Positions 14,899 to 33,567 of a DNA stretch of 33,567 nt are shown here, piece by piece (the stretch's first letter is position 1; every line of letters starts with the position of its first letter). The notes beneath the pieces were generated by a model. That model was not told where the DNA came from and did not search any database. It saw nothing but the letters and a program-made list of their open reading frames with translations. Source of the DNA: Dehalococcoidia bacterium (GTDB lineage Bacteria > Chloroflexota > Dehalococcoidia > SHYD01 > SHYC01); contig SHYC01000004.1 in assembly GCA_009693005.1 (NCBI GenBank), positions 1 to 33,567 of the forward strand, given 5' to 3'. Both the position numbers and the translations under genes were made by a program.

Positions 14899-16653
14899 AT
14901 GAAGCATAAATCTGACAGCCTAACCGTTATGGGTAGCAGGGTTTTCTATATACTAATGGGACTATGCAGTCTTCTCATCGCAGCAGCCTGTGGCCCATCG
15001 GCTACGCAAGCGCCCTCGGGAGGCCAAGATGCCGGGCAGCCACCCCAGGCCGGCTCTCAACGTCCCCAGAGCGGGGGAACATTGAGATTGATGGGTGGCG
15101 GATATGTAACTTACGGTACCGTAGATATCAACAGGAACAACACCGGCGCCCCGAACGGCTTTGTCGGCCAGTCAGTCAACCAGGTGGTGAAGCGGGAGCT
15201 CGCATCCGGAAAATACGAGATCGTTCCTGACCTCGCCGAGTCCTGGCAGGTGTCACCGGACGGTCTCACCTACACCTTCAAACTCCGTAAAGGCGTTAAG
15301 TTTCAGAACGTCCCTCCAGTCAACGGCCGTGAGTTCACCGCCGACGACGTGGAGTACATGATCAAGCGCACCAGCGCCGACCCGGAGATAGTGCCGGCTA
15401 AGTGGAAAGAGCTCTTCATTAGACGCTCGGACTTTACCAGCATCTCCTCCCTCACAAAACCCGACAAGTACACAGTGGTCATAAAATTGAAGCAGATCGA
15501 CGCCGTCTTCATGCACAACATGGCCACCCTGGGAACTGCGGTCGTGCCCCACGAGCTAATAGAGGAGAACCCGGACAAGCTTATCCAGGACAAGATAATA
15601 GGCACCGGCCCGTTCATCTGTAAGGAGTATGTCCCGGATGTGAGACAGTACTGTGACCGCAATCCGGATTACTGGAGGAAGGACGAATTCGGCACCCAGC
15701 TACCTTATCTGGACAGGCTGGAGAAGAACTTCTACGGGGGTTCAGATACGTCCGCAGCTGTCGCGGCCTTTCTCTCTGGTCAGATCGATACCTTGGCCTA
15801 TAACATTGGTGGCCCAACCTTGACCGACGCCGACATTAGCACGGTCATGAAGCAGATGAAGGATAAGGTCTATGTGATCAATAGCTCTAGCGGACAGTTT
15901 AGCCACCTCAGGTTCAACGCTGCCCGCGCGCCTTTCGACAACGTAAAAATGAGAAAAGCAGTCTATCTGGCCATAGACCGCCAGCAGATCATAGACTCTA
16001 TTGTCCCCGGCGGTGGTGAAATCACCGGTCTCGTTCCCCCTGCCCTCGCGGGTCAAGGCGCTCAGACGGTCGACGAGCTTATGAAGATGCCGGGCTACCG
16101 CCAGCCCAAGGACCAGGACATTGCCGAAGCCAAGCGGCTGGTCAAAGAGGCCGGTTACGAGGGAGTTACCGTGGAGATGAACACCTCCGGCGCCACGGCC
16201 ACCTCGGCTGACCTGGCAGCTCTAGTGAAAGAGCAGCTTGCCAAAGTAGGGATCAACGTCAAGGTAAAGCTCACCGCCAACTATCAGGACCATCTTAATG
16301 AGATGCTGGCAGACAAATTCCAGTTGACTTGGACTGGGCATGGGGCGTCGCCAGACCCGGACGAATATATCTACAAGCACTTCAATACCGATGGGGCCCG
16401 GAACTACTACAAGTTCTCTGATCCCAAGTGGGACCAGGTCTCGGCAAAACAGAGGTTTGCAGTAACGACGGAGGAGCGCACTAAGGCGATAAAAGAGGCC
16501 CTGGCCTTGCACTCCGAGATTGCGCCCAACGCGCCGATATACAGCAGCCTGAATCAGGACATCTACCGCAACTACACGCACGGTTTTGGCAAGCCCGTTC
16601 AACCTTATGATGGGAGAAACAACTTTGACCTGTACTGGATGGAGAAGCACTAG
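14899..16653 (+). CDS. Family 5 extracellular solute-binding lipoprotein, copy 1
   Basis: This 584-residue lipoprotein is of the oligopeptide/dipeptide/nickel-binding family (SBP_bac_5). After the signal a lipobox (LIAAACGPS) fixes the lipid-bearing Cys, followed by a low-complexity Ser/Pro/Gln linker. Family motifs are ELASGKYEIVPDLAESWQVS, PDGLTYTFKLRKGVKF, FTADDVEYMIKR, IIGTGPFICKEYVPDVR and RNPDYW. A Cys pair (ICKEY...YCDRN) is shared with copies 3 and 4. It would capture a peptide or similar ligand outside the cell for the DppB/C-like permeases encoded downstream. It is expressed from P1 after a leader of about 280 nt. The end of the protein (residues about 460-483) lies in a 71-bp block identical at DNA level to copy 3. 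Confidence 0.95.
   Translation: MKHKSDSLTVMGSRVFYILMGLCSLLIAAACGPSATQAPSGGQDAGQPPQAGSQRPQSGGTLRLMGGGYVTYGTVDINRNNTGAPNGFVGQSVNQVVKRELASGKYEIVPDLAESWQVSPDGLTYTFKLRKGVKFQNVPPVNGREFTADDVEYMIKRTSADPEIVPAKWKELFIRRSDFTSISSLTKPDKYTVVIKLKQIDAVFMHNMATLGTAVVPHELIEENPDKLIQDKIIGTGPFICKEYVPDVRQYCDRNPDYWRKDEFGTQLPYLDRLEKNFYGGSDTSAAVAAFLSGQIDTLAYNIGGPTLTDADISTVMKQMKDKVYVINSSSGQFSHLRFNAARAPFDNVKMRKAVYLAIDRQQIIDSIVPGGGEITGLVPPALAGQGAQTVDELMKMPGYRQPKDQDIAEAKRLVKEAGYEGVTVEMNTSGATATSADLAALVKEQLAKVGINVKVKLTANYQDHLNEMLADKFQLTWTGHGASPDPDEYIYKHFNTDGARNYYKFSDPKWDQVSAKQRFAVTTEERTKAIKEALALHSEIAPNAPIYSSLNQDIYRNYTHGFGKPVQPYDGRNNFDLYWMEKH
16276..16346 (+). repeat. 71-bp block identical to 20214-20284 (copy in lipoprotein 1)
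   Basis: This stretch, starting GCCAACTATCAGG and ending GGGCATGGGGC, is identical base for base to the matching part of lipoprotein gene 3, while sequence directly before and after differs in many silent positions. Copy 4 codes for nearly the same residues here with different codons. The pattern points to recent gene conversion. Confidence 0.9.
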
Positions 16654-16738
16654 GCTATATAACAAAATGCAATTCTCTATATATTACGGGTGTAAGAAGC
16701 TTTGCAAGTATCGTGCCAGGGATAGGATGAGATAAGCA

Positions 16739-18457
16739 ATGGAGTTCCAGCCTGGGAAGAGTTTTTTGTGTTTATTACTAGGACTATGTGGCGTGCTAAT
16801 TGTGGCCTGCGGTCCATCGGGCACACCAGCGCAACCTGCGGGGCAGGGCGCCAAGCCAGCCACCGAAGCCCAACCAGAACGAGGCGGTACTTTGCGACTG
16901 CTGGCCGCGGGGCACTTAAATTATGGGACGACGGACCCACACAGGTCTCCCTTCGGTCCCATACCCTTTTCTGGACAGTCTACAAACAAGGTGCTCAAAC
17001 GCAACATAATGTCCGGCAACTACGAGATCATCCCCGAGCTTGCGGAGAGTTGGGATGCAGCGCCCGATGGCATGAGCTATACTTTTAGACTGCACAAGGG
17101 TGTGAAGTTCCACAATGTGCCACCAGTGAATGGTAGAGAGTTCACTGCCGATGACGTGGAGTACATGATACGGCGTATTAGCGCCGACCCGGAGATAGTA
17201 CCGGCTAAGTGGGTCCCCTTTTTTGTCAAGCGCAGCGACTTTGTGAACGTGGCTGGGTTCGAGAAACCAGACAAGTACACTATCGTTGTGAAAATGAAAA
17301 AGCCCGACCCCACCTTCCTCCACAACATGGCTAACAACAGTGCCGTTATCCTTCCGCATGAGCTAATAGAGGAGAATCCAGAGAAGCTGGTCCAGGACAA
17401 GATAATTGGCACGGGACCCTTCATGCACAAAGAGTATGTGCCCGATGTCAGGCATGTAGTTGAGCGCAATCCCGACTACTGGAAGAAGGATGAGCGGGGC
17501 GTCCAACTGCCGTACCTTGATAAGCTAGTTAAGGACTATTACTCATCCAGGGGTGCCGACGTTGCAGCATCCGTGGCTGCGTTCCTCTCTGGCCAGATAG
17601 ACGCCCTGGCTGCCATAGGTGGCGGGAACAACCTTAACAGTGCCGACATAGAGACAGTAATGAGGCAGATGGGGGACAAATCCTATGCTACCTCCAGCCC
17701 TGGCTACGGTGTTTTCCACCTGAGATTCAACACCAAGCGGCCCCCCTTTGATAATGTAAAGATGAGGCGCGCCGTGACACTGGCCCTGGACCGGGAGCAG
17801 ATAAAATCAGCTCTCTCGGCCCCCTCGACACTGAGCGGCTTCATCCCTCCGCTCCTCGCCGAAGGCGGGGCCCAAACCGTGGAAAACCTCCTCAAGTTGC
17901 CCGGCTACCGGGAGCCGAAAGAACAGGATATTGCGGAAGCCAAGAAGCTGGTGCGGGAAGCTGGTTTTGATGGCGTCGCTGTGGGAGTTCACTTTCATAA
18001 CCCAGACTGGGTTGACTCAGCATCCATAATCAAGGAGCAGTTAGGGCGGATCGGAATTAATGTAAGCATAACAATTAACGCCAGTTCTGAGGTTAGTATA
18101 GCCAACATGGAGGCCAACAAGTTCGAGATGATGCTATGGAGCCAAGCCTTCGATGGGGAGATTGGTGAGTACGTCTATTCCCATTTCCACACCAAGGGGT
18201 CCAGGAATTACTACAAGTTCTCTGACCCCAATTGGGACGACCTAGCTGAGAAGCAGAGGGCTGCGGTTAACTTAGAGGAGAGAAAGAAGATAATTAAAGA
18301 GGTTATTGCCTATCAAGTGGATATAGTGCCCAATGCCCCTATATCAAGCGGCTTGACTAGGAGCATCTATCGCAGCTATACACACGGCTTTGGAACGCCG
18401 GTCAATTCGGGCGACGCCAGTCAGAACACTGATGTGTACTGGGTGGACAAGCACTAG
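16739..18457 (+). CDS. Family 5 extracellular solute-binding lipoprotein, copy 2 (most divergent)
   Basis: This 572-residue paralogue of the neighbouring lipoproteins has lipobox LIVACGPS and the same core motifs (FTADDVEYMIRR, IIGTGPFMHKEYVPDVR, RNPDYWKKDERG). It is the most divergent copy: the two Cys shared by the other three are both replaced (FMHKEY for FICKEY, HVVERN for QYCDRN), and the ligand-side segment near residues 395-440 differs strongly (VAVGVHFHNPDWVDSAS instead of VTVEMNTSGATATSAD). I infer a different ligand range. There is no own promoter in the 85-nt gap after copy 1, so it is probably transcribed from P1 and ended by the terminator at 18493-18524. The ribosome site is weak (AGGATGAG region). 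Confidence 0.94.
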   Translation: MEFQPGKSFLCLLLGLCGVLIVACGPSGTPAQPAGQGAKPATEAQPERGGTLRLLAAGHLNYGTTDPHRSPFGPIPFSGQSTNKVLKRNIMSGNYEIIPELAESWDAAPDGMSYTFRLHKGVKFHNVPPVNGREFTADDVEYMIRRISADPEIVPAKWVPFFVKRSDFVNVAGFEKPDKYTIVVKMKKPDPTFLHNMANNSAVILPHELIEENPEKLVQDKIIGTGPFMHKEYVPDVRHVVERNPDYWKKDERGVQLPYLDKLVKDYYSSRGADVAASVAAFLSGQIDALAAIGGGNNLNSADIETVMRQMGDKSYATSSPGYGVFHLRFNTKRPPFDNVKMRRAVTLALDREQIKSALSAPSTLSGFIPPLLAEGGAQTVENLLKLPGYREPKEQDIAEAKKLVREAGFDGVAVGVHFHNPDWVDSASIIKEQLGRIGINVSITINASSEVSIANMEANKFEMMLWSQAFDGEIGEYVYSHFHTKGSRNYYKFSDPNWDDLAEKQRAAVNLEERKKIIKEVIAYQVDIVPNAPISSGLTRSIYRSYTHGFGTPVNSGDASQNTDVYWVDKH

Positions 18458-18492
18458 GCTATACGCTCAAAGATATGCTTTGGCCCTTATCG

Positions 18493-18524
18493 GGGGCGCC
18501 TGTATAAGGCGCCCCTCCTTTTTT
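18493..18524 (+). terminator. Intrinsic terminator after lipoprotein gene 2
   Basis: GGGGCGCC (18493-18500) and GGCGCCCC (18508-18515) form a perfect 8-bp GC stem with a 7-nt loop, followed by TCC and six T (18519-18524). It separates the copy 1-2 transcript from promoter P2, which begins 12 nt further on. Confidence 0.9.
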
Positions 18525-18535
18525 ATGTATATTTA

Positions 18536-18564
18536 TTGACAATCCATTATGTCTAAGGTATAAC
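18536..18564 (+). promoter_or_regulatory. Sigma70-type promoter P2 for lipoprotein gene 3
   Basis: TTGACA (18536-18541), a 17-bp spacer and TATAAC (18559-18564). The region after the -10 (CCATCTAATATATT) matches P1 almost base for base, so the two promoters share ancestry or a regulator. It starts immediately after the terminator of the previous unit. Confidence 0.8.
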
Positions 18565-18593
18565 CATCTAATATATTATGAATAGGGTATATC

Positions 18594-18626
18594 GAAGCTT
18601 TCTTTTATGGCAACATAAGCGGCTTC
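18594..18626 (+). other. Leader 2: 5' hairpin with GCAA tetraloop
   Basis: TTATG (18605-18609) and CATAA (18614-18618) close a GCAA loop, a stable GNRA type. An outer stem GAAGC (18594-18598) and GCTTC (18622-18626) extends it. It begins about 25 nt after the expected transcription start, comparable to the hairpins of leaders 1 and 3. Confidence 0.4.
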
Positions 18627-18676
18627 ACAGGTCGTTACCAATCTACCGTTATTATAAGCCAGGAGGGTTCAGAAAT

Positions 18677-18691
18677 ATGCGAGTGACTTGA
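18677..18691 (+). CDS. Leader 2 mini-ORF (MRVT)
   Basis: ATG-CGA-GTG-ACT-TGA follows the very strong ribosome site AGGAGGG (18661-18667) with a 9-nt gap. It lies 113 nt after the -10 box and 164 nt before the lipoprotein ATG, matching the geometry of leaders 1 and 3. The strong ribosome site without a long frame behind it is hard to explain otherwise. Confidence 0.4.
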   Translation: MRVT

Positions 18692-18854
18692 GCAACAGGA
18701 CCGCAGACGCCCACATTGCTATTCCAACCAAACCATCTTCGTTGACAAAACTCAGGAATTGCGGCAGACCCAATGCGCACACGGAGTTGTTTCAATACAG
18801 GCCATTAGCGGGCAGGGAGATTATTCAGGAAGTTAAAAGGAGTCGACCAAATAA

Positions 18855-20591
18855 ATGCAGCATCAATTTAATAGAACAAGGTTTTTCTATATATTACTTG
18901 GGCTATGCAGCCTTCTTATCGCGGCGGCCTGCGGTCCCTCGGCAACCCAAGCGCCGTCCGGCACGCAGGGTGGGGCGCAGCCGCCAACTACCTCCGACAA
19001 GCCCCAGAAGGGTGGAATATTGAAGCTGATGGGTGGCGGTTACGTCTCCTACGGCACCACCGACGCTCACAGAGCTTCCTTCGGCCCTCCCACGGGCTTC
19101 TCAGCCCAGTCTGTCAACCAGGTTGTCAAGCGCAACCTCATGTCCGGCAAATACGAGATCATTCCCGAGCTTGCTGAAAGCTGGACACAATCACCCGACG
19201 GCCTCACTTATACCTTCAAGCTCCAGAAGGGCGTCAAGTTCCAGAACCTGCCGCCTGTCAATGGTAGAGAGTTCACCTCAGACGACGTGGAGTACATGAT
19301 CAAGCGCATTAGCGCCGATCCGGCCATCGTCCTTGAGAAATGGACTCAGCTTTTCACCCGGCGCTCCGATTTCACCTCCATATCATCTATTGAGAAGCCG
19401 GACAAATACACGATTATCGTAAAGATGAAGCAGCCCGATGCTGTATTCATGCACAATTTGGCAACAATCGGCTCCATTATCGTTCCCAAAGAAATGATAG
19501 ATGAAAACCCGGACAAGCTAATACAGGACAAGATAATAGGCACTGGTCCCTTCATCTGTAAAGAGTATGTCCCCGATGTAAGGCACTACTGCGACCGCAA
19601 TCCTGACTACTGGAAGAAAGATGCGGATGGAGTACAGCTGCCTTACTTTGACAGACTGGAGAAGAACTTCTACAGCGGCGGGGATACTTCCGGTGCGGTT
19701 GCAGCCTTCCTCTCCAGCCAGACCGACGTGCTGGCAGGCTCTATCGCAAGCTTCTCTCTCACTGATGCAGACATTAAAACCGTGATGAACCAGATGAAAG
19801 ACAAGGCGTACATGATCGCCAACTCCGGCAGCAACTTCTCACATCTCAGAATCAATGCTACTCGGGCTCCGTTCAACAACGTCAAGATGCGTCAGGCAGT
19901 GAATCTTGCGATTGACCGCCAGCAAATAATAGACTCGACTGTTCCGGGAGGCGCGGAACTCAGCGGAATCGTCCCGCCCGCTCTGTCGGATGGCGGCGCA
20001 CAGACAGGAGACGAGCTTATGAAGCTTCCCGGCTACAGACCGCAGAAAGACCAGGACATCGCTGAGGCAAAGAAGCTGGTGAAGGATGCAGGCTTCGAGG
20101 GCGTCACTATAGAGATGAACACCTCGGGTGGCACAGCAACTAGCGCCGACCAGGCTTCCCTTGTTAAGCAGCAGCTAGCCAAAATAGGGATTACAGTAAA
20201 CATAAAACTGACTGCCAACTATCAGGACCATCTTAATGAGATGCTGGCAGACAAATTCCAGTTGACTTGGACTGGGCATGGGGCTTCTCCTGACTTTGAT
20301 GAATACATATATAAGCATCTCCACTCCAAGGGCGCGAGGAACTATTACAAGTTTTCCGATCCCAAGTGGGACCAGTTGGCTGATAAGCAGAGATTCGCAG
20401 CCAACCTTGAAGAGCGCAAGAAAGCCGTCAAAGAAGCTGTTGCGTATCACGAAGAGATTGTTCCCAATGTCATCTTGTATGCAAGCTTGAACCAGAGCAT
20501 ATACCGGAACTACACCCACGGCTGGGGAAAGCCGGTGCAACCTTATGACGGTTTGACCTCTTTTGACGAGTACTGGATGGAGAAGCGCTAG
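18855..20591 (+). CDS. Family 5 extracellular solute-binding lipoprotein, copy 3
   Basis: This 578-residue lipoprotein is close to copies 1 and 4. The lipobox is LLIAAACGPS, followed by a short Gly/Ser/Pro linker. Motifs are NLMSGKYEIIPELAESW, FTSDDVEYMIKRISADP, GTGPFICKEYVPDVRHYCDR and RNPDYWKKDADGVQLPY. The SGGTATSAD segment near residue 420 is shared with copies 1 and 4, suggesting a similar ligand pocket. It has its own promoter P2 and leader. AAGGAG (18838-18843) lies 11 nt before ATG 18855, a slightly long gap; no better start exists because the lipoprotein signal begins directly afterwards. It contains the second copy of the 71-bp identical block. Confidence 0.95.
   Translation: MQHQFNRTRFFYILLGLCSLLIAAACGPSATQAPSGTQGGAQPPTTSDKPQKGGILKLMGGGYVSYGTTDAHRASFGPPTGFSAQSVNQVVKRNLMSGKYEIIPELAESWTQSPDGLTYTFKLQKGVKFQNLPPVNGREFTSDDVEYMIKRISADPAIVLEKWTQLFTRRSDFTSISSIEKPDKYTIIVKMKQPDAVFMHNLATIGSIIVPKEMIDENPDKLIQDKIIGTGPFICKEYVPDVRHYCDRNPDYWKKDADGVQLPYFDRLEKNFYSGGDTSGAVAAFLSSQTDVLAGSIASFSLTDADIKTVMNQMKDKAYMIANSGSNFSHLRINATRAPFNNVKMRQAVNLAIDRQQIIDSTVPGGAELSGIVPPALSDGGAQTGDELMKLPGYRPQKDQDIAEAKKLVKDAGFEGVTIEMNTSGGTATSADQASLVKQQLAKIGITVNIKLTANYQDHLNEMLADKFQLTWTGHGASPDFDEYIYKHLHSKGARNYYKFSDPKWDQLADKQRFAANLEERKKAVKEAVAYHEEIVPNVILYASLNQSIYRNYTHGWGKPVQPYDGLTSFDEYWMEKR
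20214..20284 (+). repeat. 71-bp block identical to 16276-16346 (copy in lipoprotein 3)
   Basis: This is the partner of the block in lipoprotein gene 1. Flanks differ at once: CTGCC versus CCGCC before the block and TTCTCC versus GTCGCC after it. The direction of copying cannot be told from the window. Confidence 0.9.
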
Positions 20592-20680: not shown

Positions 20681-20716
20681 TAACTTCTCCCTTACCAAAT
20701 AGTAAGGGAGAAGTTA
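20681..20716 (+). other. Leader 3: perfect 15-bp hairpin near the 5' end
   Basis: Positions 20681-20695 and 20702-20716 are perfectly complementary around the 6-nt loop CAAATA. No T-run follows, so it is not a normal terminator. Starting about 15 nt after the expected transcript start, it could stabilise the RNA 5' end, or be the target of a processing enzyme or an RNA-binding protein. Confidence 0.7.
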
Positions 20717-20811: not shown

Positions 20812-20938
20812 ATGTGCGTTAGTCTCTCTTAAGCCCGTAGATATCATCAAGTAAACATCGTTTAACCGTTGAATTTTCCTAGAGTTGCTATTGAGACTAT
20901 AAAAGGGGACCTGCTGTAGAGAATAGGAGGGGATGTTA

Positions 20939-22693
20939 ATGTTCCAGACTTGTAGTGAGCCTGGCCGAACTAAAGGAAAAGCTGCCCTGGTATGGGCATA
21001 TCTCGCTGCAAGCGCTCTGCTGCTGGCAGCCTGCGGTCCATCGGCAACACAAACACCATCCGGAACCCAAAGTGAACAGCCACCACAGGCTCAAGGACAG
21101 CCGCAGCGTGGTGGAGCATTCCGCGTTATGGTTTCGGGATATGTGTCCTACGGAACAGTAGACGCTCACCGCGCCTCATTTAGCCCACCGGTCGGTTTCG
21201 CCGGCCAATCCGTTAATCAGATTGTCAAACGCAACCTCAATTCCGGCAAGTATGATATCATTCCAGACCTGGCAGAAAGCTGGCAGGTCTCTCCGGACGG
21301 GCTTACCTACACTTTCAAGCTCCACAAAGGCGTCAAGTTCCAGAACGTCCCTCCGGTCAACGGCAGAGAGTTCACCTCAGACGACGTGGAGTATATGATA
21401 AAGCGCATCAGCGCAGACCCATCGATAGTGCTCGACAAATGGAAGGACCTGTTCACCAGGCGCAGTGATTTTACCAGCGTCGCCAGCATCGAGAAGCCGG
21501 ACAAGTACACCGTAGTAGTTAGGATGAAGCAGCCTGATGCAGTCTTCATGCATAACATGGCCACTATCGGCACGATCATCGTGCCCAAAGAGATGATAGA
21601 TGAAAACCCGGACAGGCTTATCCAGGACAAGATCATAGGCACCGGTCCTTTTATCTGTAAGGAATATGTGCCGGACGTCAGACAGTACTGCGACCGCAAT
21701 CCGGACTACTGGAAGAAGGATGAAAATGGCACTCAACTACCCTATCTGGACAGGCTGGAGAAGAATTTCTATAGCGGGGGCGATACTTCTGGGGCCATTG
21801 CTGCCTTCCTGGCGGGCCAGATCGAAGCGCTGGCTGGTCAAGGTGGTGGTCCACCGTCCCTAACCGATGCAGACATAACTACGATAACGAAGCAGATGGG
21901 CGATAAGGCCTACTTGATCACCAGTTCCGGTGGAAATTTCGGACATATCAGGATCAACGCCAAGCGTCCGCCTTTCGACAATGTAAAGATGAGAAGGGCC
22001 GTTTATCTGGCAATAGACCGGCAGCAGATCATCGATTCGACCAATCGGGGTGGCGCGGAGATCAGCGCCCTTATTCCGCCAGCCCTCGCAGGAGGCGGTG
22101 CGCAGTCGGTGGATGACTTGTTGAAGCTGCCGGGCTATCGCCAGCCCAAGGACCAGGATATCGCCGAGGCCAAGAGGCTGGTCAAGGAGGCCGGTTACGA
22201 TGGAGCCACGATAGATATGAACACATCGGGCAGCACAGCAGTAATCGCAGATCTGGCAGCCCTTATTAAGGAGCAGCTAGGCAAAGCAGGTATAAATGTC
22301 AACGTAAAGCTGACAGCTAACTATCAGGACCATCTGAACGAGATGCTGGCCGACAAGTTTAACCTTACTTACACGGGCCATGGCGCCTCCCCTGACCCTG
22401 ACGAGTATATCTACAAGCACTTCGCTACCAAAGGAGCCAGGAACTACTACAAGTTCTCTGACCCCAAGTGGGACCAGCTCGCTGAGAAGCAGAGGGCTGC
22501 GGTTACTGACGAGGAGCGCAAAAAGGCGGTGCAGGAGGCTGTAGCGTACCACGCTGAAGTGGCGCCCTCTGTTCCCTTGTCTGCCACCTACAATCAGTTC
22601 TTTTACCGTTCTTACACTCACGGTTTTGGCAAGCCAGTGCAGAACGTTGATGGCAGCGCCTACTTCGATGTCTACTGGATGGACAAGCGCTAG
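20939..22693 (+). CDS. Family 5 extracellular solute-binding lipoprotein, copy 4
   Basis: This paralogue of about 584 residues has an atypical, longer signal region (MFQTCSEPGRTKGKAALVWA) before the lipobox LLLAACGPS. I prefer ATG 20939: the ribosome site AGGAGGGG (20925-20932) touches the alternative ATG at 20933 but is well spaced for this one. Core motifs are as in copies 1 and 3 (FTSDDVEYMIKRISADP, FICKEYVPDVRQYCDRN, NTSGSTAVIADLAA). It has its own promoter P3 and leader. The 77-nt gap to the permease gene contains no terminator, so gene 4 and both permeases are probably one transcript, making this copy the likely default partner of the transporter. Confidence 0.94.
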   Translation: MFQTCSEPGRTKGKAALVWAYLAASALLLAACGPSATQTPSGTQSEQPPQAQGQPQRGGAFRVMVSGYVSYGTVDAHRASFSPPVGFAGQSVNQIVKRNLNSGKYDIIPDLAESWQVSPDGLTYTFKLHKGVKFQNVPPVNGREFTSDDVEYMIKRISADPSIVLDKWKDLFTRRSDFTSVASIEKPDKYTVVVRMKQPDAVFMHNMATIGTIIVPKEMIDENPDRLIQDKIIGTGPFICKEYVPDVRQYCDRNPDYWKKDENGTQLPYLDRLEKNFYSGGDTSGAIAAFLAGQIEALAGQGGGPPSLTDADITTITKQMGDKAYLITSSGGNFGHIRINAKRPPFDNVKMRRAVYLAIDRQQIIDSTNRGGAEISALIPPALAGGGAQSVDDLLKLPGYRQPKDQDIAEAKRLVKEAGYDGATIDMNTSGSTAVIADLAALIKEQLGKAGINVNVKLTANYQDHLNEMLADKFNLTYTGHGASPDPDEYIYKHFATKGARNYYKFSDPKWDQLAEKQRAAVTDEERKKAVQEAVAYHAEVAPSVPLSATYNQFFYRSYTHGFGKPVQNVDGSAYFDVYWMDKR

Positions 22694-22770: not shown

Positions 22771-23718
22771 ATGACGAGGTTTATCGTACGCAGACTATTA
22801 ATGCTCATTCCGGTGCTTTTAGGTGTCAGCCTCCTTATATTCACGCTGATGCGGGTTGTGCCCACAGACGTAGCAGCAATGATGCTGGGGGAGAACGTAT
22901 CTACAGAGACCCTGGCCAGCCTTCGGAAGGACCTTGGACTGGACAAACCGATCCCGCTCCAATATTTCGAATGGATCAGCAACGTCGTGAGGGGTGACCT
23001 GGGGCGCTCTATCTGGTTGCCAGACAAAACGGTGACCGAACGACTTTTGCAGCGCTTGCCAGTTACCTTTGAGCTGGCCCTAATAGCCACCTCGGTGGGC
23101 ATAATATCCGGCATATCCTTTGGTGTGCTGGCAGCAGTCCGCCAGGATACCTGGGTGGACAATGTGGCGCGGGCCGTAGGCATCATTGGCCTGGCGGCTC
23201 CGAGCTTCTGGATAGCTACGATAGTAATTCTCTTTCCAGCTATTTTCTGGGGCTGGTCTATTCCAGCAGCCTACGTGGATCTTACGGAGAACCCGGGCAA
23301 CCATCTAATGAAGATCGTGCCGGCGGCGTTGGTATTGGGCTTTTCACTTACCGCTACCGTAATGCGTTATAGCCGTACCACCCTGCTTGAGGTGCTGCGT
23401 CAAGACTATGTAAGGACCGCACGCGCGAAGGGTCTGACCGAAAGAGTTGTCATTTACCGCCATGCGTTGAAAAACGCTCTGATACCTGTGGTAACCATAT
23501 CCGGCCAGGCGTTCGCGAGGCAGCTCGGCGGTACCGTGATCATAGAGACAGTGTTCAATATCCCTGGCGTTGGCCTTCTCATGATAGGCGCAATAACCGC
23601 CAGGGACTATAACATGGTCCAGGGGGGAATTCTAATCCTGGCCCTCTTCCTCGCTTTCTCTAACCTTGTAGTGGACGTACTATACGCTGTATTGGATCCG
23701 CGGATACGCTACAGCTAG
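22771..23718 (+). CDS. ABC transporter permease, DppB/OppB-like
   Basis: This 315-residue inner-membrane permease is of the dipeptide/oligopeptide/nickel importer family. It starts with the family hallmark TRFIVRRLLMLIPVLLGVSLLIF, then a periplasmic segment (LGLDKPIPLQYFEWISNVVRGDLGRS). The EAA loop that contacts the ATPase reads YVRTARAKGLTERVVIYRHALKNALIPVV (residues about 212-240). ETVFNIPGVG follows, then the C-terminal LVVDVLYAVLDPRIRYS. The ribosome site AAGGAGG is ideally placed before ATG 22771. It serves the upstream lipoproteins together with the next gene. The ATPase subunits (DppD/DppF type) are not in the window and must be encoded elsewhere. Confidence 0.96.
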   Translation: MTRFIVRRLLMLIPVLLGVSLLIFTLMRVVPTDVAAMMLGENVSTETLASLRKDLGLDKPIPLQYFEWISNVVRGDLGRSIWLPDKTVTERLLQRLPVTFELALIATSVGIISGISFGVLAAVRQDTWVDNVARAVGIIGLAAPSFWIATIVILFPAIFWGWSIPAAYVDLTENPGNHLMKIVPAALVLGFSLTATVMRYSRTTLLEVLRQDYVRTARAKGLTERVVIYRHALKNALIPVVTISGQAFARQLGGTVIIETVFNIPGVGLLMIGAITARDYNMVQGGILILALFLAFSNLVVDVLYAVLDPRIRYS

Positions 23719-23772: not shown

Positions 23773-24681
23773 ATGAGTGCACAAGGACCAATAAGCCACA
23801 CAGCAGGAGAAATTGCGGTGGTGCTGCGGCCTAAGCAGCCTGCGATAATCCAATTCATGAAGCGTCTGATGCACAAGCCGCTCGGCTTCATATCATTCCT
23901 AATCATCCTCGGAGTAGTATTCTGTGCCCTCTTCGCGGATATCGTAGCGCCCTACGATCCGGACTTGACGGACCGGACTGCTACTCTGGTCGCTCCTAAT
24001 GTGGCGCATCCTCTGGGTACTGATCCGCTCGGAAGGGATGTTCTCAGCCGTATCATCTACGGGGCAAGAATATCCCTGTTTATTGGTATTCTGGCAACCG
24101 GCACTAACGTCATCCTGGGGGCGACCATAGGCATGATCGCCGGTTACTACGGTGGTAGGCTAGGCATGATAATCATGCGATGTATGGACGTTGTCATGGC
24201 CATTCCTCTCATTATCCTGGCGATTGTGATGGTAGGGATTTTGGGGCCATCCACCAAGAATGTGATCTTGGCCATCATTGTGGTGGGCACGCCATCCGTG
24301 GCCAGAGTAACCGAGGGCATAGTGCTTTCGGTGAGCAAGAACGTCTATGTGGACGGGGGCAAAGCTATCGGCGCCACGGACTTCAGAATCCTTTTCCGCT
24401 ATATCCTGCCAAACATATTGCATGTCACGATGGTGCAATTCTCCATCGGTATGGGCTTCAATATTCTCACTGAGTCCAGCTTGAGCTTCCTGGGGCTAGG
24501 CTCTCCACCGCCGACTCCCACATGGGGCCAGATGCTGAGCGGCAGCGGAAGAAGATACTTCGCCCTGGCGCCTTGGCTAGCAATATGGCCGGGGTTGGCA
24601 ATAACCCTGGTAGTCTACTCATACAACATGCTCGGCGACGCTTTGAGAGACCTGCTGGACCCAAGAATGCGAGGCTCGTAA
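23773..24681 (+). CDS. ABC transporter permease, DppC/OppC-like
   Basis: This 302-residue partner permease has a cytoplasmic N-terminal extension of about 35 residues, then a first membrane helix (LGFISFLIILGVVFCALFADIVAPYDP). The family motif HPLGTDPLGRDVLSRIIYGARISLFIG follows at about residues 77-103. The EAA loop is YVDGGKAIGATDFRILFRYILPN, and the end is the usual YNMLGDALRDLLDPRMRGS. It follows its partner by 54 nt; AGAGGGGGGG lies upstream of the ATG. With no ATPase genes after it, the cassette is incomplete, which fits a cell in which several permease pairs share ATPases; that part is inference. Confidence 0.96.
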   Translation: MSAQGPISHTAGEIAVVLRPKQPAIIQFMKRLMHKPLGFISFLIILGVVFCALFADIVAPYDPDLTDRTATLVAPNVAHPLGTDPLGRDVLSRIIYGARISLFIGILATGTNVILGATIGMIAGYYGGRLGMIIMRCMDVVMAIPLIILAIVMVGILGPSTKNVILAIIVVGTPSVARVTEGIVLSVSKNVYVDGGKAIGATDFRILFRYILPNILHVTMVQFSIGMGFNILTESSLSFLGLGSPPPTPTWGQMLSGSGRRYFALAPWLAIWPGLAITLVVYSYNMLGDALRDLLDPRMRGS

Positions 24682-33350: not shown

Positions 33351-33446
33351 TACAGTCCTCCAGTTTTAACGATTAGGGCGACACACGCCACCATCTGATA
33401 AATAGCCTAACACCGCGCTTGGGCTTGCCCCGATCTCACGGACATC

Positions 33447-33452
33447 TATAAT
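33447..33452 (+). promoter_or_regulatory. -10 box before the transposase
   Basis: TATAAT lies 30 nt upstream of ATG 33483 and is followed by AAAGGA at a suitable distance. No clear -35 box is seen. The left terminal repeat of the element should lie in this region, but without the right end I cannot define it. Confidence 0.4.
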
Positions 33453-33482
33453 AGTGGGTGAAGACCCAGAAAGGATGTCGAG

Positions 33483-33567
33483 ATGGAATCTAGAGAGAGT
33501 AGGCATCGGCGCACGTTTACGCCGGAGTACAAGGCAGAGGTGGTTGATCTGTGTCGCAGCAGCGGCA
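33483..33567 (+). mobile_element. IS3-family transposase OrfA, 5' end only
   Basis: The first 28 codons are seen before the window ends. The residues RRTFTPEYKAEVVDLCRSSG match the N-terminal helix-turn-helix start of IS3-type OrfA transposases (RRxFTxEFKxxAVxL pattern). The ribosome site AAAGGA is upstream. Whether OrfB and the terminal repeats are intact cannot be known here. An element at this position fits the accessory character of the preceding 4 kb. Confidence 0.85.

Follow-up and report, generated by a model that had tools for sequence, protein, structure and literature searches.

The window, the whole 33,567-nucleotide stretch of Dehalococcoidia DNA that was analysed, harbors four tandem SBP_bac_5 (family 5) solute-binding lipoprotein genes followed by OppB-type and OppC-type permease genes, and genes 1 and 3 of this array share an exact tract of 71 bp. 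The features are as follows.

14899 to 16653, + strand: gene 1, SBP_bac_5 solute-binding lipoprotein, 584 aa (Pfam PF00496, E = 2.5e-79; AAC lipobox in the alignment)
16276 to 16346, + strand: gene 1 tract, 71 bp, 71/71 identity to 20214-20284, sharp edges
16739 to 18457, + strand: gene 2, SBP_bac_5 lipoprotein, 572 aa (PF00496, E = 1.3e-69)
18855 to 20591, + strand: gene 3, SBP_bac_5 lipoprotein, 578 aa (PF00496, E = 2.9e-74)
20214 to 20284, + strand: gene 3 tract, 71 bp, 71/71 identity to 16276-16346, sharp edges
20933 to 22693, + strand: gene 4, SBP_bac_5 lipoprotein, 586 aa (PF00496, E = 1.5e-72)
22771 to 23718, + strand: OppB/DppB-type permease (PF00528, E = 4.1e-36; PF19300)
23773 to 24681, + strand: OppC/DppC-type permease (PF00528, E = 2.5e-29; PF12911)

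Genes 1-4 score 235-268 bits against PF00496 (gathering cutoff 32.4), and inspection of the alignment by eye revealed in all four copies a hydrophobic N-terminal stretch and, behind it, a lipobox (AAC or VAC, then GPS). The presence of PF00496 in the four genes and of BPD_transp_1 in the permeases likens the locus to DppA/OppA-type family 5 systems with OppB/OppC, from which it differs in placing four binding proteins ahead of one permease pair and in that none of the genes tested reached an NCBIfam equivalog cutoff. The gene directly after the permease pair encodes a dienelactone hydrolase, not an ATPase. Gene 2 is the most diverged copy of the array (57% to gene 1 at the amino acid level), and a strong terminator-like stem lies on its 3' side at 18492-18516, because of which genes 3 and 4 may, judging from the sequence, be transcribed apart from genes 1 and 2. 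Positions 20681-20716, in the spacer between genes 3 and 4, form a near-perfect 36-bp inverted repeat that occurs once in the assembly; on the minus strand it runs into T-rich sequence. The final 149 bp of the window (33419-33567) are also found at the end of another contig, C24, and contain the start of an open reading frame that looks transposase-like by eye, a fragment that lacks a Pfam match; a few shared repeats of this kind terminate many contigs. Contig C24 additionally carries a 40-bp perfect palindrome (L043:4571-4610).

The tract is ungapped, lies in the same reading frame in both genes and occupies the corresponding place in their codon alignment, where it spans 23 codons and 2 bases; the sequence-only reading, which had reported identity at all 71 positions, was thus exact. 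The second-longest exact match between genes 1 and 3 measures 28 bp. In the 36-bp blocks adjoining the tract on both sides, 21-28 of 36 bases are identical; identity falls abruptly, with no gradient, to ~70% (67-75% next to the tract), and over the whole genes the pair shows 71.5% DNA identity and 75% protein identity. Codons with the same residue and a degenerate third position agree in only 50% of cases across the gene, and synonymous sites are therefore near saturation. The flanks and the rest of the genes are diverged, as that reading had also held, and the flanks retain the older divergence, which delimits a bounded tract of the sort by which ectopic conversion is recognized.

The window belongs to a fragmented metagenome bin of 1.77 Mb in 146 contigs (74% complete), and in this assembled genome 100% matches to the tract occur in genes 1 and 3 only. 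The other copies in the bin match it at 79% (gene 4), 84% over a partial alignment (contig C9) and 75% (contig C32). Gene 4 encodes 21 of the 23 tract residues of gene 1 with other codons, as had been proposed from the sequence; 12 of its 15 differing sites are third positions, its residue changes are Q to N and W to Y, and it also has in common with the tract a 17-bp core at the 5' end. The copy on contig C9 (L037:8981-10717) is a close paralogue of gene 1 (75% at the amino acid level) with one in-frame TAG, and that on contig C32 (L038:691-2402), also a close paralogue, is broken by a change of frame close to a short A run; each reflects either gene decay or a fault in the assembly.

The identity of the tract exceeds what chance and protein constraint can produce. 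In a GENECONV-type global permutation covering all pairs among six close paralogues, an analysis that the sequence-only reading had proposed, 0 of 2,000 permutations were as extreme at all sites (score 31.5 against a permuted maximum of 15.9) and again 0 of 2,000 at third positions (18.5 against 15.5), and P was 0.005 when the test was restricted most strictly, to third positions of codons whose residue is the same in four copies. When amino acid identity was held fixed and codon agreement was drawn at the rate measured outside the tract, the 100,000 simulations produced runs of at most 19 codons, compared with the 23 observed, and the probability of the tract, given its amino acid identity, is about 6.5e-8. 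Chance is ruled out by the permutation and the simulation together. A control stretch from the same gene pair has 27 identical residues and only 17 identical codons; since the 23-codon run lies beyond the simulations and this stretch shows that conserved protein does not bring codon identity with it, protein constraint is no explanation of the tract.

Strong protein conservation of the region could be taken to favor selection at the nucleotide level, on codon use, RNA structure or a binding site, as the force holding the two stretches identical. Copies 4, C9 and C32 nonetheless differ from the tract at 15, 19 and 18 sites, 12-13 of them third positions, with residues nearly unchanged, RNA folding of the tract is average (z = -0.06) and an Rfam scan of it gave no family match. 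Codon constraint, the alternative that had been named beside conversion at the outset, is thereby contradicted, and we regard selection of this kind as scarcely credible.

When the 17 SBP_bac_5 sequences of the window and six other contigs were compared in all 136 pairwise combinations, genes 1 and 3 gave the sole clear tract, the next pairs having uncorrected P values of 0.015-0.04, as expected from 136 tests. Two candidates were examined and rejected: a 53-bp exact match between two solute-binding protein genes of contig C4, which loses significance when the high synonymous similarity of that gene pair (0.72) is taken into account (P = 0.035 before correction for 136 pairs), and a run shared by genes 2 and 4, for which P was 0.0165 at all sites but 0.73 at third positions. 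With only one clear tract among the 136 pairs, the array shows a single event in place of continuing homogenisation; concerted evolution is also disfavored by how strongly the other copies have diverged at synonymous sites. The earlier statement that the array is recombining was therefore too strong, the other 135 of 136 pairs lacking a comparable tract. It is most improbable that the array belongs to a genome-wide binding-protein repertoire reshuffled by short-patch recombination that alters pocket residues, for instance the Trp common to genes 1 and 3, and thereby substrate range in this uncultured lineage. The small genome holds at least 15 SBP_bac_5 family members, with further arrays on contig C113 (L039; six genes, the last short) and contig C4 (L040; three genes). 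A single-protein scan of genome contigs found no close relatives, an alignment scan returned relatives of only ~25-35% identity, the best outside match being a Chloroflexi bin, a hint at that phylum, and among 393 genomes of the class a single outside match passed the strict cutoff, at 37% identity. As these scans brought up no close relatives beyond this genome, the close copies may represent a lineage-specific expansion.

In a bin of 146 contigs and 74% completeness, in which many contigs break in repeats, an assembly artefact deserves attention, whereby read mis-placement or gap filling would have put the tract of one gene into the other. In a sample of 109 contig ends, sequence is often shared between ends, and the shared stretches mostly reach ~150 bp from the end and rarely further. 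Contigs that ran a read's length into a repeat before breaking off would give this pattern, so the reads were probably about 150 bases long. Such reads would span a 71-bp repeat plus unique flank. A repeat misjoin, moreover, would delete or swap whole flanks, whereas genes 1, 2 and 3 are complete and in order on one contig, and the other close copies, with 15-19 differences per 71 bp, differ too much for consensus smoothing. An artefact is thus unlikely.

The codon usage of the tract bears on its source. A first codon-usage ratio suggested gene-3-like usage, a separation that disappeared after leave-out calibration; in the leave-out test, over 23 codons, usage in the tract is unusual for both genes and falls in the lower 0.2% tail of each. 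This would suit a third source that gave the tract to both genes, either a paralogue missing from the bin, which may lack 26% of the genome, or another strain whose DNA entered by transformation, and DprA is present. Two events would then be required where one otherwise suffices, the codon signal is based on 23 codons, and ComEC was not found in the bin; we consider this origin very unlikely, more so than an assembly artefact. MutS and UvrC were found along with DprA, and RecA, like ComEC, was not; the missing RecA and ComEC say little, because the bin is only 74% complete.

The identity of the tract, its uniqueness, the permutation and the simulation make gene conversion between genes 1 and 3, as the sequence-only reading had suggested, the best explanation, and we hold with considerable confidence that a single, recent, short ectopic (intrachromosomal, non-reciprocal) conversion made the tract. 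Direct support for conversion consists of the exact shared tract, its sharp edges, the excess over chance and protein constraint, and the absence of the tract elsewhere in the assembly. In such an event a strand of gene 1 or gene 3, which lie 3.9 kb apart, would pair with the other gene, and about 71 bp of the paired strand's sequence would be copied in or retained, leaving one gene rewritten with a piece of its partner. Pairing might begin in a short patch of ancestral identity, perhaps the 17-bp core shared with gene 4, since short perfect-match patches of this kind exist in the region, and the cell's general recombination or repair machinery would presumably carry out the copying. A flank-affinity likelihood for the direction of transfer, with copies 4, C9 and C32 as outgroups, gave a summed lnLR between -0.84 and 0.33; like the calibrated codon usage, it does not tell donor from recipient.

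Recombination below 97% identity is classed as homeologous, perfect matches of 23-90 bp are needed in E. coli, and mismatches strongly lower recombination (PMC3758752). Genes 1 and 3 lie far below the usual identity range for efficient homologous recombination, and the event must therefore be rare, which agrees with the detection of just one. A sub-case of the conversion reading, whose likelihood is contained within that of the whole, is RecA-independent short-patch replacement in place of RecA-mediated conversion, through annealing of single-stranded DNA at the replication fork or through template switching. The short tract, its sharp edges and flanks that are ~70% identical, where RecA-type recombination is inefficient (PMC3758752), are consistent with this route, and intragenomic short-segment substitutions have been reported (Harms et al. 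2016, as cited in PMC8116780). The flanks are nevertheless homologous, so that homology-based pairing is possible, and one genome cannot tell the two routes apart; we entertain short-patch replacement tentatively, as the less likely of them.

Conversion among paralogous genes is an ordinary, well-documented process in bacteria; only the low identity of the partners (~72%) is slightly unusual. In Mycobacterium tuberculosis, conversions between paralogues have a median length of 101 bp with an interquartile range of 33-244 bp (PMC13061034), within which 71 bp falls. Tracts there are likewise short and set among dense paralogue differences, whereas many events were recorded there in 151 genomes of known ancestry and here one event in one genome, between paralogues that are 71.5% identical. 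The tuf genes of Salmonella offer a parallel in non-reciprocal copying between two chromosomal gene copies, but they are kept near-identical by RecA-dependent conversion (PMC5485169); the solute-binding protein genes described here are near synonymous saturation, and conversion has therefore not preserved their similarity. In Helicobacter pylori transformation, microimports have mean lengths of 48-56 bp (PMC9426483) and are similarly patches of tens of bases with original sequence on either side; they derive, however, from foreign DNA at the same locus, whereas here two loci of one genome match (UvrC is present). In B. subtilis, transfers of <100 bp are described (PMC13344027), and the 71-bp tract is in line with all of these lengths. 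Programmed segmental conversion of the pilE/pilS or vlsE type, marked by silent cassettes, an expression locus and numerous mosaic variants, does not describe this locus: the array has four full-length open genes, and the 136 pairs in the genome gave one tract.

At the protein level the exchange appears to have changed little. It had been proposed that conversion keeps part of the ligand-binding lobe uniform, a claim not supported here, as genes 1 and 4 share 21 of 23 tract residues without sharing the DNA. The Trp in the motif TWTGHGA of genes 1 and 3 is replaced by Tyr in gene 4 and in the copies on contigs C9 and C32, and is the only tract residue that distinguishes in this way; because this one Trp alone sets genes 1 and 3 apart from three close copies, the tract looks nearly neutral, with an effect on at most a few residues, most visibly the shared Trp. 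The TWTGHGA segment aligns with the W(T/S)G..GDPD segment of dipeptide- and heme-binding proteins, its relatives of solved structure. In DppA, an Asp of that segment contacts the ligand amine, and the residue aligned to it here appears to be His, so the tract may touch the binding site. Structure prediction from a four-sequence alignment reached a mean pLDDT of 34.9, and placement in the pocket consequently rests on the sequence alignment.

The locus is a clear example of paralogues exchanging a short tract at only ~72% identity, less than efficient recombination usually requires, and it warns that trees built from parts of these solute-binding protein genes could mislead.
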